A stretch of 64,000 bases of DNA, taken from NCBI GenBank assembly GCA_015068705.1, contig SVJZ01000002.1, positions 50,594 through 114,593 of the forward strand. Direction: 5' to 3'. The DNA comes from Oscillospiraceae bacterium (GTDB taxonomy: Bacteria > Bacillota > Clostridia > UMGS1810). Both the position numbers and the translations under genes were made by a program. Below, one piece after another: positions 4,622-15,249 of the stretch. A model generated the notes under the pieces. It worked only from the letters and a program-made list of their open reading frames with translations. It searched no databases and was not told where the DNA came from. Numbering within the stretch: the first letter of the stretch is position 1; each line of letters starts with the position of its first letter.

Positions 4622-7600
4622 TCATATCTTTGTAATATCCACAATTCCAATATTTTCTTTGGTGCAACCCGATTTGAGTGCAAGCACTGCCGCCTTTGCG
4701 GTATCGAGCGAAGTGAAACACGGGATGGAACGTTCCACCGTCTTGCGGCGGATTTTAAATCCGTCTCTCTCGGGAGCACGTCCACGGGTGGGGGTGTTGA
4801 TAACCACATCCACCGTTCCGTCGTGAATCAAATCCAAAATATCCGGCTTGCCCTCACCAATCTTCTTGACCGCATTGGTGGGAACAAAGTGCTTGTTCAG
4901 GCGATTTGCAGTGCCGCCGGTTGCATAGATGTCATAACCGAGGTCGGAAAACTCGCCAACCACCCACATTGCCTCTTCCTTATCGGTATCACGCACAGTG
5001 GCAAGCAGTTTGCCGGTATTTTTCAGGCGGATGCCCGAGCCGAGCAGACCTTTAAACAGCGCCTCCGAGAAATCCTTGGAAATACCCAGTACCTCACCGG
5101 TGGATTTCATCTCGGGGCCAAGGCTTACGTCCACATCGTGCAGTTTTTCAAACGAGAATACCGGAACTTTAACCGCAATGTGCTCGGCTTCGGGATAAAG
5201 CCCCGTGCCATAGCCCAGATCCTTGAGCTTTTCACCCAGTACCACACGGGTAGCCAGATTTACCATGGGGATATTGGTTACCTTGGAAATGTAGGGCACA
5301 GTACGGGAAGAACGGGGATTTACCTCGATAACATATACCGCACCTTCATAGATGACAAACTGGATATTGACCAGACCCACCACATGCAACGCACGGGCTA
5401 GACGTCCGGTGTAATCGACAATGACATCCTTTAAGTGCTGCTCAATGGTGCGGCTGGGGTAAACCGAGATGGAGTCGCCCGAGTGCACGCCTGCACGTTC
5501 CAGATGCTCCATGATACCGGGGATGAGCAGGTCTTCGCCGTCACAGATGGCGTCAACCTCTACCTCCTGCCCCATCATGTATTTATCCACCAGAATGGGA
5601 TGCTCCTGGGTGTTTAAGTTGATGATGGACATGAATTCTACGATATCATTATCGTTGTAGGCAATTTCCATGCCCTGACCGCCCAACACATAGGACGGAC
5701 GCACCAACACCGGATAGCCGAGGGAGTGCGCCGCTTCCAGCGCCTGCTCCTTGGTAAACACCGTGGTGCCTGCCGGACGCGGAATACCCGTCTGCTCCAG
5801 GATTTCATCAAACCGTTCACGGTCTTCTGCCGCATCAATATTCTCGGCAGAGGTACCAAAGATTTTTACACCCAGATCGTTGAGGGTTTTGGTGAGCTTG
5901 ATTGCGGTCTGCCCGCCAAACTGCACGATTGCGCCCTCGGGCTGCTCGGTTTCGATGATATTTTCCACTTCCTCTGGAGTCAGCGGCTCAAAGTAGAGCT
6001 TGTCTGCCGTGTCAAAGTCGGTGGAAACCGTTTCGGGGTTATTGTTTGCAATGATGGTTTCATAGCCCGCCTCTTTGAGTGCCCACACACTGTGCACACT
6101 ACAATAGTCAAACTCGATACCCTGACCGATACGGATGGGGCCACTGCCCAGTACCAGTACCTTTTTCTTATCCGAGGGAATTGCCTCGTTTTCCTCATCA
6201 TAGGTGGAATAGTAGTAGGGTGTCTGTGCATCAAATTCTGCGGCACAGGTATCTACTACCTTATAGGTGTGACGGATGCCCATCTCATTTCGCAGATTGC
6301 GGATATCCCGTGCGGTGGTGCCTTTGAGGTCTGCGATGGCAACATCCGAAAAACCAAACTGCTTAACCTTTTTGAGCAGGTCATAGGTCAGCTCATTCTC
6401 GCGCACCTCGTTTTCCAGCTCCACAATGTGCATGATACGATCCAAAAACCACACATCCATGGTGGTCATATCATGGATTTGCTCCACCGTAACACCCTTG
6501 CGGAATGCCTCGGTAATGATAAACAAACGCTCGTCTGTGGTGGTTTTGAGCATTTCCAGCAGCTCTTCCTTGGTGCAATCTGCAAGCTTTTTCAATGCCA
6601 GCGTAGGTGCATTGATTTCCAGAGAACGCACTGCTTTTAAAATCGCCTGCTCGAAATTGACGCCAATGCTCATCACCTCGCCGGTTGCCTTCATCTGGGT
6701 ACCCAGCTTACGGTCTGCCTTAACAAATTTGTCAAACGGCCAACGGGGGAATTTTACCACCACATAGTCGATGGTCGGCTCAAAGCACGCATAGGTGGTG
6801 CCGGTTACCTCGTTTTGGATTTCGTCCAGGCCATAGCCGATGGCAATTTTGGTAGCGACCTTTGCAATGGGGTAACCGGTTGCCTTGGAGGCAAGCGCAG
6901 AAGAACGGGACACACGGGGGTTTACCTCGATGACCGCATATTCAAAGCTATTGGGTTCCAATGCAAACTGACAGTTACATCCACCCTCAATGCCCAGTGC
7001 CGAGATGATGTTAAGTGCGGCATTTCTAAGCATACTGTATTCTTTATCGGTAAGGGTCTGTGCAGGTGCGGCAACGATGGAGTCACCGGTATGCACACCA
7101 ACCGGGTCCATGTTTTCCATGGAGCAAACGGTGATGGCATTGCCCTTGCTGTCACGGATTACCTCATACTCGATTTCTTTCCAACCCGAAATACATTTTT
7201 CTACCAGAATCTGATGTGCACGGGAGGCACGCAAGCCATTGTGTGCAATCTCGTCCAGATCTTCCTCGTTGTATGCAATACCGCCGCCGGTGCCGCCCAT
7301 GGTAAATGCCGGACGGATGATAACCGGATAGCCAATCTGATTGGTAAATTCCAGTGCATCCTCGTAGGTTTCTACCACCTTACTGGCGATACACGGCTCA
7401 CCGATTGCCTCCATGGTGTCCTTAAACATCTGGCGGTCCTCCGCCTTTTTGATGGACTCCACATTGGTGCCCAAAAGGCGTACATTCATCTTTTCCAGAT
7501 ATCCCTCTTCGGCAAGCTCGGTGGCAAGGTTTAAGCCTGTCTGACCACCCAGTGTGGGCAGGATGGAATCGGGTTTTTCCTTCTCGATTACTTTTTTCAC

Positions 7601-7819
7601 CGTTTCCACCGTAAGCGGCTCGATATACACGGCATCTGCCATGTTTTTATCGGTCATGATGGTTGCGGGGTTGGAGTTGATAAGCACCACTTCAATCCCT
7701 TCGCTTTTGAGCGTTTTACACGCCTGGGTGCCCGCATAGTCAAACTCTGCCGCCTGACCGATGATGATGGGACCACTTCCGATTACAAGCACCTTTTTGA
7801 TTCCTTCGTATCTGGGCAT
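4622..7819 (-). CDS. carB: Carbamoyl phosphate synthase large subunit
   Basis: Makes carbamoyl phosphate from bicarbonate, ammonia and two ATP. The 1065-residue protein has the full duplicated architecture: two ATP-grasp halves, each opened by a nucleotide-binding segment ([21 protein letters not shown] at the N-terminus and [19 protein letters not shown] near residue 555), with [12 protein letters not shown] and [13 protein letters not shown], and a C-terminal MGS-like allosteric domain ([11 protein letters not shown]). No key residue looks missing. It abuts carA. Because the partner CarA looks unable to hydrolyse glutamine, this subunit may have to use free ammonia; that is inference. Confidence 0.97.
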
Positions 7820-8860
7820 TTAACGTGTCGCTCCTTTCATCATTTCCTCAAACCGCGCGAACACAAAGCCCGTGCCGGTTGCACTCTCTGTTGCATTGGG
7901 GTGAAACTGAACGCCAAAAGCGTTGGGAGTAAAACTCATTCCCTCGATGCTTGCATCATTGACATTAACATAGGTAATGTTATTCGCATCCACCGTATTG
8001 ATATCCACCTGATAATCACGATTCTGATTGGTAAGATAGGTGCGTCCGGTTGCCTTGTCCAGTACCGGATGGTTCACCCCGTGGTGACCCTGTTTTAAGG
8101 GAAGGGTTTTTGCACCCGAGGCAAGTGCCATCAGTTCAAATCCCAGGCCGATACCCAACATAGGAACGCCGGTGTCCAGCAATGCTTTTGCCGTTTCCAC
8201 CGCTTGGGTGTATTTTCCCGGATCTGCAGGACCGCAGGAGAGAATCACGCCGTCAAATCCTTTTGCATCATCTGCCTTGGCATCCGACGGCAACACGGTA
8301 ATATCATATCCCCGTGCCGAAAGGGTATTTACCAGGCTCTTGGGTGCACCAAAATCATACATTACCACCCGATTACCGTTACCCCCAATATGTGCTTTTT
8401 CGCCGTAGTGTGTATTTGCTTGCGTTTCCACCCCACTCAGCGATTGTTTGTCATAATCGGGGTTGGTGGTGATAACTGCATTCATTCTTCCGGCAGAACG
8501 GATTTCACGGGTGAGGCTTCTGGTATCAATTCCTGCGATACCTGCTACACCCTGTGCTTTCAAAAAATCATTCAGTGTGCCGGTACAACGGAAGTTGCTA
8601 GGACGCTCGCATAGATTACGCACAATCAGTCCCTTTGCAGTTGCCTTGGGCGATTCAAAATCTTCTTCATTGACACCGTAGTTGCCCACCAACGGATAGG
8701 TCATAGCAACGAGCTGCCCTGCGCTTACCGGGTCGGTTAAAATTTCCTGATAACCAGTCATGCAGGTGTTGAATACCAGCGTGCCAACCGCATCCACATC
8801 AGCACCGATGTGCTCGCCGACAAACACTCTGCCATTTTCCAGCATTAAATAAGCCTTCAT
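7820..8860 (-). CDS. carA: Carbamoyl phosphate synthase small subunit with degenerate glutaminase site
   Basis: Normally the glutaminase subunit that feeds ammonia to CarB. The fold is plainly CarA: N-terminal small-subunit domain (MTGYQEILTDP, residues about 34-44; GIAGIDTRSLTR) and a class I amidotransferase domain (VVMYDFGAPKSLV onward). But the nucleophile motif, normally GICLGHQ, reads GIGLGFE: Gly238 replaces the catalytic Cys, and the following His-Gln is Phe-Glu. The second motif, normally GHPE, reads FHPN: His320 is kept but the catalytic Glu is Asn322. The oxyanion motif is GPAD instead of GPGD. Several independent changes in a gene with an intact frame argue against a sequencing error. 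At 346 residues it is shorter than the roughly 360-380 usual. It may serve as a structural subunit of an ammonia-dependent enzyme. Confidence 0.93.
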   Translation of the reverse strand: MKAYLMLENGRVFVGEHIGADVDAVGTLVFNTCMTGYQEILTDPVSAGQLVAMTYPLVGNYGVNEEDFESPKATAKGLIVRNLCERPSNFRCTGTLNDFLKAQGVAGIAGIDTRSLTREIRSAGRMNAVITTNPDYDKQSLSGVETQANTHYGEKAHIGGNGNRVVMYDFGAPKSLVNTLSARGYDITVLPSDAKADDAKGFDGVILSCGPADPGKYTQAVETAKALLDTGVPMLGIGLGFELMALASGAKTLPLKQGHHGVNHPVLDKATGRTYLTNQNRDYQVDINTVDANNITYVNVNDASIEGMSFTPNAFGVQFHPNATESATGTGFVFARFEEMMKGATR

Positions 8861-8889: not shown

Positions 8890-9804
8890 TTACAGTATGG
8901 AATTGAGTTCCTCTCTCATGCGGATTGCCTCATCCCGTGCAGCCTGTGCAAACTGCTCGGGGGTATAATCACCCTTGCGATAAGCACACATGATACCACG
9001 GGAGGAATTGACAATCGCGCCACTTCCGTTTTTATCAAAGTTTGCCGCAACGTCGCTTGCCTTGCCGCCCTGCGCACCATAACCCGGTACCAGGAAGAAG
9101 GTGTGCGGCATGAGCGCGCGCAATTTTGCCGCATGCTCGGGATAGGTAGCACCAACCACTGCACCCACACGGGAATAGCCGTGTGCGCCGATATTATCTG
9201 CCCCCCAACCCTCAACCAATGCCGCCATCTTTTCACAAACGGCACCTCCTGCAGCAAGGTCCATATCCTGCAATTCACCCGAGGACGGATTGGAGGTTTT
9301 TACCAGTGCAAAGCAATCCTTATCATACTGCTTGCACGCATCGGTAAAGGGCTTGATACCATCGGTACCCAGGTATCCATTGATGGTTACCGCATCACAA
9401 CCAAAGGATTCCTCATAGAGGTCACCGTCAATCTGTGTTTTCCCCAGATACGCCGTTGCATACGCCTCGGCAGTGGAGCCGATGTCATTTCTCTTTACAT
9501 CCAAAAGCACATACAAACCGGCGGATTTTGCATAGTCAATGGTCTTTTTCAGGGTCATCAGTCCTGCGATTCCATACATCTCATAGTATGCCGATTGCGG
9601 TTTTACCGCCGGAACAATGTCGCACAGTGCATCAATGAGCGCCTTGTTAAATTCCCAGATTGCATCTGCCGCACCCAATGCGCCCTTGCCAAATACCGAA
9701 AAGCTCTTTTCACGAATGTGCTGAGGAACATAGTCAATCTTGGGGTCCAAGCCGAACACCGAGGGGTTTTTCATTTTGTTAATTGCATCAATCAATCTAT
9801 CCAC
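8890..9804 (-). CDS. pyrF: Orotidine 5'-phosphate decarboxylase, long (type 2) form
   Basis: Catalyses the last step of UMP synthesis, decarboxylation of OMP. The 304-residue length is that of the longer PyrF subfamily rather than the 230-residue B. subtilis type. The active-site signature is LLDVKRNDIGSTA near residue 95, containing the catalytic Lys and paired Asp residues; phosphate-binding segments (VPGYGAQGGK and NSSRGIM) follow in the C-terminal half. It sits 12 bases after pyrC and 29 before carA in the pyr operon. Confidence 0.95.
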   Translation of the reverse strand: MDRLIDAINKMKNPSVFGLDPKIDYVPQHIREKSFSVFGKGALGAADAIWEFNKALIDALCDIVPAVKPQSAYYEMYGIAGLMTLKKTIDYAKSAGLYVLLDVKRNDIGSTAEAYATAYLGKTQIDGDLYEESFGCDAVTINGYLGTDGIKPFTDACKQYDKDCFALVKTSNPSSGELQDMDLAAGGAVCEKMAALVEGWGADNIGAHGYSRVGAVVGATYPEHAAKLRALMPHTFFLVPGYGAQGGKASDVAANFDKNGSGAIVNSSRGIMCAYRKGDYTPEQFAQAARDEAIRMREELNSIL

Positions 9805-9816
9805 TTGCTCATCTCC

Positions 9817-11109
9817 TTACAGTAAGATACCCTGCCGTACCACCAGATGTCCATTTACAATGGTATACTCTACCGTGCCGGACAGCTCATAGCCGTTATA
9901 GGGGGAATTTTTGGATTTGGACAGGAATTTGTCCGTTTCTACCGTACGTTTTTTGTTTTCGTCTATAATCACCAGGTCGGCGTTCTTGCCCACCTTGATC
10001 TGACCCTTGTTCAGTCCCAGAATTTGCGCAGGGTTTACGCTCATCTTCTCAATCAACTGTGCCATGGTAAGGTGCCCTGCCTTTACCAGATAGGTCACAC
10101 CCAGCGACAGTGCTGTTTCAAAGCCCACAATACCATTTGCCGCTTTGGCAAACTCCACATTTTTCTCATCCGGATGATGCGGAGCATGGTCGGTAGCGAT
10201 GGCATCAATGGTGCCGTCCTTCAAGCCCTCGATGATTGCCTGCACATCGTCTGCGGTGCGAAGGGGCGGATTCATCTTTGCATTGGTGTCAAATTCCCCT
10301 GCTGCTTCCTCGGTGAGGGTGAAATAGTGCGGACAGGTTTCGCAAGTAATGGGAGCGCCCTGTGCCTTGGCATGGCGGATGATTTCCACCGAATTGCGGG
10401 TGCTCACATGGGCAATATGCACCGGCACCTGATAGGTTAAGGATAAGATCGCCTCACGGGAAACCATCAGCTCTTCGCTTGCACGGCTGATGCCTTTGAG
10501 TCCCATATAGGTGGACATATATCCCTCGTTAAGTGCACCTCCCTGTACCAGGGAAAGCTCCTCGCAGTGGGAAATCACCGGCGTGTCAAACATTGCCGCA
10601 TATTTTAATGCATTTCGCATAATGGCAGGGCTTTCCACCGGTCTGCCGTCATCCGACACCGCTACAACCCCTGCAAATTTCATCTCGCCGATTTCGGCAA
10701 GCTCTTCACCCTTTAATCCCTTGGTGATTGTACCGATGGGATACACATTCACCGCACCCACCTCGCGCGCCTTGTTGATGATGTAGCTTACCATTGCGCC
10801 ATTGTCAATCACCGGATTGGTATTGGGCATGCAGGCAATGGAGGTAAAGCCACCCATCGCCGCACTCTTGGTGCCCGATTCAATATCCTCTTTATATTCA
10901 TAACCCGGCTCACGCAGATGGCAGTGCATGTCCACCAGACCGGGGGCAACCGTCAAGCCGGTTGCATCAATGATTTCAATATCCACACCCGACAGGTCGA
11001 TGTCCTTTTCAATCTGCACAATCTCGCTGTTTTCCATGTAGATATCCATGATTTCGTCCAGACCGTTACTGGGGTCCAACACCCTGCCGTTTTTAATTAG
11101 AAGCCTCAT
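9817..11109 (-). CDS. pyrC: Dihydroorotase
   Basis: Cyclises carbamoyl aspartate to dihydroorotate. The 430-residue protein is a class I amidohydrolase: [10 protein letters not shown] near residue 60 carries the first metal-binding His pair, followed by [12 protein letters not shown], then ISHCEE, HIAHVST and the metal-binding Asp in IATDHAPHH. The frame is open 17 codons upstream, but the ATG at 11109 has AGGGAGG five bases before it and matches the family N-terminus [13 protein letters not shown]. It overlaps the 3' end of pyrB by 17 bases. Confidence 0.96.
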
Positions 11110-12034
11110 TGCTACCTCCCTTTCTCGCCAGCATATAGAGCAATGCCATGCGCACTGCAACGCCGTTGGTCACCTGCTCGTCAATAGCACTGAAATCGCT
11201 GTCTGCCACTTCGCTGGTAATTTCGATGCCGCGGTTCACCGGACCCGGATGCATCACCAGCACATCCGGTTTTGCATAAATCAGGCGTTTTTCGTCCAAA
11301 CCAAAAAATCTCGAATATTCGCGGTTGGAGGGTACGAATCCCTCACTCTGGCGTTCAAACTGCATACGCAGGTTGATGATCACATCTGCGTCCATGAGTG
11401 CTTCCGGGGTACTGCAATATACCTCGCAGCCCAGTCTTTCAATATCAGGGGGGAGCAATGTGCTCGGACCGCCCACCGCAACCCGTGCGCCCATTTTTTG
11501 CAATGCATAGATATTACTGCGTGCCACACGGCTGTGTGCGATATCGCCGATGATGGCAACCTTCAAGCCTTCGATTTTCCCCTTTTTCTCCTGAATGGTA
11601 AACAAATCCAGTAGGCTTTGGGTGGGGTGTTCGTTCATACCATCACCTGCGTTGATGATGGATGCCCGTACATTTTTTGCCACAAAATGCGGTGCACCTG
11701 CCATGGAATGGCGGATGATAATAATGTCAGCGCCCATCGCATCCACTGTGCGCGCGGTATCCAAAAGGGATTCTCCTTTTTTCACCGAGCTTGTCCCAAC
11801 CGAAATGTTGGCGGCGCTTGCGCTCATATATTTTGCTGCCAGCTCAAACGAAAGTCTGGTACGGGTGGAATTCTCATAAAAGAGGGTAACCACCGATTTT
11901 CCCTGCAGATGAGGCGTTTTTTTACTGTTTTGCTGCAACACATATTTCATGGTGGCTGCATTTTTTAAAATCAGTTCGATATCCTCCGCCGCCAGGTCTT
12001 TGATGCCCAGCAGGTCTTTTTTATTTCCTATCAC
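11093..12034 (-). CDS. pyrB: Aspartate carbamoyltransferase catalytic subunit
   Basis: Condenses carbamoyl phosphate with aspartate. The 313-residue protein shows the carbamoyl phosphate loop [16 protein letters not shown] (residues about 55-70), the second loop with [11 protein letters not shown], and [21 protein letters not shown] and [11 protein letters not shown] further on. It starts at a GTG, supported by GGAGGGG seven bases upstream and by a 4-base GTGA overlap with the pyrR stop, so the two genes are coupled. No regulatory subunit (pyrI) is present, as in Bacillus-type operons. Confidence 0.95.
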
Positions 12035-12597
12035 TCGTTTTCCCCTCCGCTCTGCTTGTCCATAATCACCACGCGGTTGCACCCGTCAAACTCGGCAACC
12101 TGCACCTCAACCACCTCACTGGTAGAAGTGGGCACATTTTTCCCTACATAATCGGGACGGATGGGAAGCTCGCGGTAACCGCGATCCACCAGCACCGCCA
12201 GTTGAATCATCTTGGGTCTGCCAAAATCCATCAACTGGTCAATCGCCGCACGGATGGTGCGTCCGGTATAGAGTACATCGTCCACCAACACAATGCGTGC
12301 GTCGGTAATCATAAAATCAATCTCGGTGCCGTTGATGACCGGAGAATAGTTGAGCAGGGACAAATCATCCCGATAGAGGGTGATGTCTAAAATACCCATG
12401 GGCACATCCACCCCTTCCACCTGCCGGATTTTTTCGGTAATCTTCTTTGCCAGGCTCACGCCTCTGCGCTGAATACCGATAATGGCAAGCGAATCGGTTC
12501 CTTTGTTTTTCTCAATAATTTCAAACGCAATACGACTAATGGCACGTTCCATAGCGGCTTCGTCCATAATCAAAGCCTTTTCTTTGAGTGTACTCAT
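12031..12597 (-). CDS. pyrR: PyrR pyrimidine operon attenuation protein / uracil phosphoribosyltransferase
   Basis: RNA-binding regulator that senses UMP/UTP and promotes termination in the pyr leader; it also has weak uracil PRTase activity. The 188-residue protein has the type I PRTase fold with the PRPP loop [19 protein letters not shown] near residue 95, and the basic segment [14 protein letters not shown]. The ATG at 12597 is preceded by AGGAGGT at eight bases; upstream open frame is ignored. It is the first gene of the operon, just downstream of an attenuator and a PyrR-type binding loop. Confidence 0.96.
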
Positions 12598-12638
12598 CCA
12601 ACCCGACCTCCTTTGTAATCGCCCCTTCAAGCGGGCAC

Positions 12639-13869: not shown

Positions 13870-15249
<1,380 letters not shown>

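Follow-up and report, generated by a model that had tools for sequence, protein, structure and literature searches.

Loss of the CarA glutaminase site in an Oscillospiraceae bacterium and other Clostridia, and a probable ammonia-fed carbamoyl phosphate synthetase

Introduction

The closest described precedent for the gene considered here is that of CPS1, the ammonia-specific carbamoyl phosphate synthetase I of the mammalian urea cycle. Human CPS1 has a serine (Ser294) at the position of the catalytic cysteine, an inactive glutaminase domain and free ammonia as its substrate; the tunnel inside the enzyme is closed off, and another path has been proposed for the entry of ammonia (PMC4655335). 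The carbamoyl phosphate synthetase (CPSase) of Escherichia coli, CarAB, is a CPS II that uses ammonia only at very high levels, and a 2018 review gave glutamine as the donor for all bacterial CPSases (PMC6245113). Two further cases are instructive. CPS III of Alcolapia fish made an independent shift from glutamine toward ammonia, in its case with the triad kept and a glutamine-binding residue lost (PMC7657897), and in the NAD synthetase family, shaped by lineage-specific loss and by horizontal transfer, members without a glutaminase use ammonia (PMC3376133), although this is a different enzyme and its ammonia form is thought to be ancestral, whereas in the clostridial CPSases described below it would be derived. 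The same residue has been removed from E. coli CarA by engineering (C269S, PDB 1c30), but that protein is a laboratory mutant and not a natural one.

The stretch of 64,000 nucleotides from an Oscillospiraceae bacterium analysed here (the window) carries a CPSase that, like CPS1, retains a glutaminase-like domain that is inactive and in which the catalytic cysteine is replaced, and that, judged from sequence, would like CPS1 use ammonia. An initial annotation, made from the letters of the window alone, had drawn this analogy, and it is apt, since CPS1 too is without the cysteine. CPS1 itself is a single fused polypeptide that requires N-acetylglutamate and works in urea formation; the clostridial enzymes have separate subunits, the cysteine is mostly replaced by glycine, and the window gene lies in a pyrimidine operon. 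In subunit layout, CarB catalytic residues and carA-carB operon they are like E. coli CarAB, from which they differ in that E. coli CarA has its Cys269-His353-Glu355 triad and uses glutamine. The initial annotation knew of no described bacterial CarA of this kind, and among the open-licence papers that we searched there was likewise no report of an ammonia-specific bacterial CPSase with a dead glutaminase. Such an enzyme is known from vertebrates, and the bacterial case is apparently new within that literature.

The carA gene and its operon

The carA gene (7820 to 8860; all window features named here are on the minus strand) encodes a CPSase small subunit of 346 residues with a destroyed glutaminase site, in a frame of 346 codons that begins with ATG, ends with TAA and has no internal stops. 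Its product matches the NCBIfam profiles NF009475 and TIGR01368 above cut-off, and both domains of a two-domain CarA, PF00988 and PF00117, are present. In the alignment to the E. coli CarA PDB sequence, Gly238 (codon GGC, 8147 to 8149) occupies the position of the catalytic Cys269 and Asn322 (codon AAT, 7895 to 7897) that of the catalytic Glu355. The LGHQ motif has become LGFE, with Phe241 (8138 to 8140) and Glu242 in place of His-Gln, GPAD stands for GPGD, and the sole triad residue left is His320 (7901-7903), at E. coli His353. All of these changes had been read correctly at the outset, yet the list was incomplete, having missed Val45 (8726 to 8728) at the position of Ser47, Pro173 at Lys202, Asn280-Arg281 where CarA has an Asn-His pair, and Ser326 (7883 to 7885) at Gly359. 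The window protein therefore lacks a complete Cys-His-Glu triad and the full set of glutamine-binding residues. Gly359 is a position that we take to sit on the ammonia tunnel of E. coli CarA, and a small-subunit mutant with a change at this residue, G359F, has been crystallised (PDB 1m6v); in the dead CarA of genus g61 the residue here is Glu. Another tunnel position, Gly293 (Gln318 in CPS1, Val262 in the window protein), was set aside as uninformative, because the column is variable even among working CarA proteins. The AlphaFold model of the window CarA has a mean pLDDT of 88 and TM-scores of 0.91 against E. coli CarA and about 0.9 against human CPS1; since the model matches both and the site residues are replaced in the alignment, the fold is kept and the glutamine site is gone.

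The operon runs pyrR-pyrB-pyrC-pyrF-carA-carB. It is headed by pyrR (12031 to 12630; Pribosyltran), as are the syntenic operons, followed by pyrB (11093 to 12082), whose product, aspartate carbamoyltransferase, consumes carbamoyl phosphate, the dihydroorotase gene pyrC (9817 to 11160; Amidohydro_1, DHOase) and pyrF (8890 to 9804; TIGR02127). The TAA of carA abuts the ATG of carB (4622 to 7819), which encodes the CPSase large subunit, so that carA lies directly next to carB in a separate frame and the two do not form the single fused polypeptide of CPS1, although the combination of an inactivated glutaminase domain with an intact synthase is that of the CPS1 type. Only two of 274 conserved columns deviate in the window CarB, and its ATP-grasp motifs are intact in the alignment to E. 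coli. Both the intactness of CarB and the full carA frame between pyrF and an intact carB, as first described, thus held up. Close by lies a glutamate dehydrogenase gene (13870 to 15243; GGGKGG motif), which provides a context of ammonium assimilation.

Nitrogen metabolism of the source genome

The source genome is a 36-contig draft of 1.77 Mb that is 93% complete, and nearly all of it was read, piecewise, with the presence of genes judged partly by motif. It contains one carA and one full-length carB; a second carA, which the initial annotation had proposed to look for, was not found at this level of completeness. Elsewhere in the genome are pyrD, pyrK and pyrE, argF adjoins argD, and argG is also present. 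Neither ArgH nor carbamate kinase nor arginine deiminase was seen by motif in nearly the whole genome, which is weak evidence of absence. A supply of carbamoyl phosphate through arginine deiminase and carbamate kinase was considered and rejected on the same motif evidence, and the argF-argD pair looks biosynthetic. With the pyr and arg genes kept, a single carA and no sign by motif of these two enzymes, carbamoyl phosphate is expected to come from CarAB.

Ammonia use, if correctly deduced for CarAB, would not be organism-wide, since the nucleophile motifs of PurF, HisH and a fused PurL-PurQ are intact and the genome also carries a 714-residue gene resembling glutamine synthetase; a general loss of glutamine use is contradicted by the intact PurF, PurL and HisH. 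PF00117 identifies three class I amidotransferase genes, for CarA, a HisH located among his genes and a PfpI-like protein, and the idea that another class I enzyme substitutes for CarA was dropped, as only the last two would be available. The N-terminal domain of CTP synthase (PyrG) was not found in the source genome, nor were GlmS, AsnB, NadE or GOGAT by motif, and for all of these the incomplete assembly may be the explanation.

Recurrence of dead CarA in Clostridia

The comparison set, drawn from relatives and GTDB genomes, comprised 143 CarA proteins with a minimum length of 300 residues; it is non-random, as it includes loci fetched by their match to the Gly pattern. Matches to this pattern outside CarA (L151, L156, L220 and others) were left out, and L064 and L145, which represent one Acetivibrio gene, were counted once. 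The nucleophile position is Cys in 117 proteins, Gly in 23, Ser in two and Asn in one, i.e., 26 are Cys-less. Ser47, His353 and Glu355 are also present in nearly all of the Cys-bearing proteins, and 105 of the 117 share an identical ten-residue signature. Among the 26, Cys269 is lost in all, His353 in 19, Ser47 in 18, Lys202 in 16, Gly359 in 14 and Glu355 in 12, while other conserved columns, including those of the N-domain, are mostly retained. Conservation among the Cys-bearing proteins defines 81 columns; damage across the Cys-less ones is worst at Cys269, His353 and Ser47, and it is therefore not chance scatter. Glycine is probably favoured at the nucleophile because the nucleophile elbow is strained.

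On the CarA tree, 14 changes between dead and intact states are needed, at least nine of them forced by well-supported branches. A CarB tree, which is free of the fast-evolving CarA and counts the absence of carA as well, requires 13 transitions between a working CarA and a dead or missing one; well-supported branches force 12 of these. Related pairs of opposite CarA state occur in families f7 and f27, and in genus g61 CarA is dead in all five sampled species. Besides the source bacterium, about a dozen further clostridial lineages have thus lost the glutaminase residues, and the unusual CarA first noticed in the window, real as it is, is not a single oddity. The initial annotation had also held that an intact triad in relatives would refute its reading. 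This was too strict: the nearest relatives, L031 (49% identity) and L010 (same family), do have an intact Cys-His-Glu triad, which shows that the loss in the window CarA is derived and does not show it to be an error.

Several loci in this set have peculiarities of their own. The genome G043 has, in addition to a working CarA, a very divergent second one with an Asn nucleophile and its own adjacent carB (L119:443-1498). In G086, a CarA that keeps its Cys carries Gln at the position of His353 and Thr at that of Ser47 (L180:1114-2259); it is possibly dead and was tallied as intact. Two carAB sets occur in Acetivibrio mesophilus (L064, L067, L178): one is dead and belongs to an arginine cluster, where the order is carA-carB-argF, and the other is intact and lies elsewhere. 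The dead set recurs in A. straminisolvens, where its carB is broken into several frames.

Selection on dead carA, and its absence

Between species of genus g61, dead CarA has a pairwise dN/dS of 0.05-0.11, next to 0.03-0.04 for the CarB-DapF chain, and the value for dead CarA in a pair of Acetivibrio species is 0.043; pairs of working CarA range over 0.05-0.14. As these values are as low as those of working carA, the dead protein does something in at least these two groups, which are other than the window lineage. Constraint differs by lineage, however, since in one ruminant group dN/dS for dead CarA reaches 0.19-0.28. To the early suggestion that the window carA is under some selection can be added purifying selection in g61 and Acetivibrio; with its own frame intact and dN/dS low in comparable dead genes, the window carA is probably not a pseudogene.

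Other genomes have dispensed with the gene altogether. A full carB without carA was found in several of 60 relatives, including G003, G013, G032, G050 and G055 (91-100% complete), and the claim of absence rests on these five genomes, at least 91% complete, in which every CarA candidate was scored. In a wider set of 291 genomes, 37 of the 233 that bear CarB have no CarA match, an upper bound for absence, as at most seven CarA candidates per genome were scored. A permissive DNA search around the fetched carB genes of carA-less genomes found no trace of CarA, and no partner gene common to the carB-only loci stood out in their partly annotated flanks. The locus L206 of G050 reads pyrR-pyrB-pyrC-pyrF, 244 bases without carA, then carB-pyrK-pyrD-pyrE, which is the operon of the window with the carA slot empty. 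In the gap between pyrF and carB at this locus (about 6830-6880) there is a ribosome-binding-like site followed by a nine-codon frame, MELLLAKIG, perhaps a remnant of the carA start. Absence of carA falls in four separate places on the CarB tree, and the sister of L203, which has argF-carB and no carA, is L217, in whose argF-carA-carB the carA is dead, a pairing that fits the death of CarA before its deletion.

A link with GMP synthase

The GuaA of the source genome (L144:1495-2481) has 328 residues, begins just before the ATP pyrophosphatase domain and is without a glutaminase domain, and none of the three class I amidotransferase genes of the source genome is a separate GuaA glutaminase. NCBIfam still names the short GuaA "glutamine-hydrolysing". 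Among relatives with CarB and a known GuaA status, CarA is dead or absent in 11 of the 11 that have only a short GuaA; of the 26 with a full-length GuaA, CarA works in 21 and is dead or absent in five (Fisher p=5e-6, in a test that treats related genomes as independent). The genomes with only the short form span families f1, f3, f18, f19 and f32, and in four further ones the CarA encoded next to carB has another residue in place of the cysteine, Glu in two, Ala in one and Gly in one. In the wider sample, short GuaA proteins of this type from distant families of Clostridia share 82-90% identity, which suggests that the gene spread horizontally among them.

An ammonia-fed synthase and its alternatives

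We consider it probable that the window encodes an ammonia-fed CPSase with CarA as a non-catalytic subunit, a state repeated in Clostridia and sometimes ending in the loss of carA, and the enzyme of the source bacterium most likely uses free ammonia directly. Its CarB is complete, with the conserved residues that synthesis from ammonia requires, and would use bicarbonate, ATP and ammonia drawn from solution in the cytoplasm to form carbamoyl phosphate. CarA, which retains both its fold and its operon position, cannot form the glutamyl-thioester and may serve as a structural or regulatory partner of CarB; in some lineages CarB would have become independent of it. Genomes in this state tend to have lost the GMP synthase glutaminase as well. 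The likely driver would be a saving of glutamine where ammonium is plentiful, with which the glutamate dehydrogenase gene of the window and the change in GuaA agree. This reading requires that CarB has changed kinetically, because the E. coli enzyme needs such high ammonia (PMC6245113). For Clostridia as a whole we think it reasonably likely that the switch from glutamine to ammonia occurred a dozen or more times, through replacement of Cys by Gly, erosion of the pocket, deletion of carA and loss of the GMP synthase glutaminase.

Glutamine might nonetheless be the true donor if a separate glutaminase, or else the working HisH or PurQ, fed ammonia to CarAB in trans, and the intact nucleophile motifs of HisH and PurL-PurQ in the source genome would allow it. 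We regard this as unlikely, given that PF00117 offers only HisH, in its place among the his genes, and the PfpI-like protein besides CarA, and that the carB-only loci, as far as their flanks are annotated, share no partner gene. Nor do we expect that the whole operon is on its way out, with pyrimidines coming from salvage, carA an early pseudogene and carB next. The small source genome in which PyrG was not found, the long branch of the window CarA on the CarA tree and the dN/dS of the ruminant group would suit such decay, but the full carA frame, a CarB with so few deviations, the retention of pyrB, pyrC, pyrF, pyrD, pyrK and pyrE, and the low dN/dS of dead CarA in other lineages make it quite improbable.

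That the CarA protein has no role, its frame being kept only for translational coupling to carB, would account for the abutting stop and start codons in the window and for the dead carA frames that abut or overlap carB at other loci. Coupling requires an open frame, however, and not a conserved protein, and as dN/dS values of 0.04-0.11 show selection on amino acids and the conserved N-domain columns are mostly kept, we find this very unlikely. An error of assembly or sequencing, conceivable in a 36-contig draft, is scarcely credible in the face of many separate substitutions at the glutamine site with no break of the frame; for the class it is refuted, since many unrelated genomes, those of the named isolates A. 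mesophilus and A. straminisolvens among them, have changes of the same kind.

An ammonia-fed CPSase, if that is what these genes encode, would have consequences beyond the window. The clostridial genes argue against the rule of glutamine as the donor (PMC6245113) for many Clostridia, and would offer replicate natural cases of the step behind CPS1, i.e., from CPS II to CPS I. Pairs of species before and after the change (G059 and G021, G041 and G190) would allow the structural price of the ammonia switch to be measured. The automatic "glutamine-hydrolysing" naming is probably wrong for dead CarA and short GuaA, and metabolic models of such bacteria probably misassign the nitrogen donor.

Changes in CarB

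CarB itself is well preserved in the dead-CarA lineages, with deviations in 1.5% of the cells of conserved columns. Column 262 nevertheless stands out: it holds Gln in 68 of the 69 CarB proteins whose CarA works and Ser in the window CarB (codon at 7034 to 7036), and in one alignment it is changed in 11 of 18 dead-CarA rows and in all eight carB-only rows, although a ninth carB-only protein, that of G050, retains the Gln. In independent pairs, 4.6 of 12 follow the trend and none is opposite (p about 0.06), so a covariation of this column with CarA status is suggestive only. At a number of loci (L124, L127-L130, L133, L142, L143 and L211-L215), frames of ~1350 residues have the C-terminus of CarB fused to a domain that by eye is DapF-like (diaminopimelate epimerase), an odd arrangement that joins pyrimidine or arginine synthesis to the synthesis of lysine for the cell wall.
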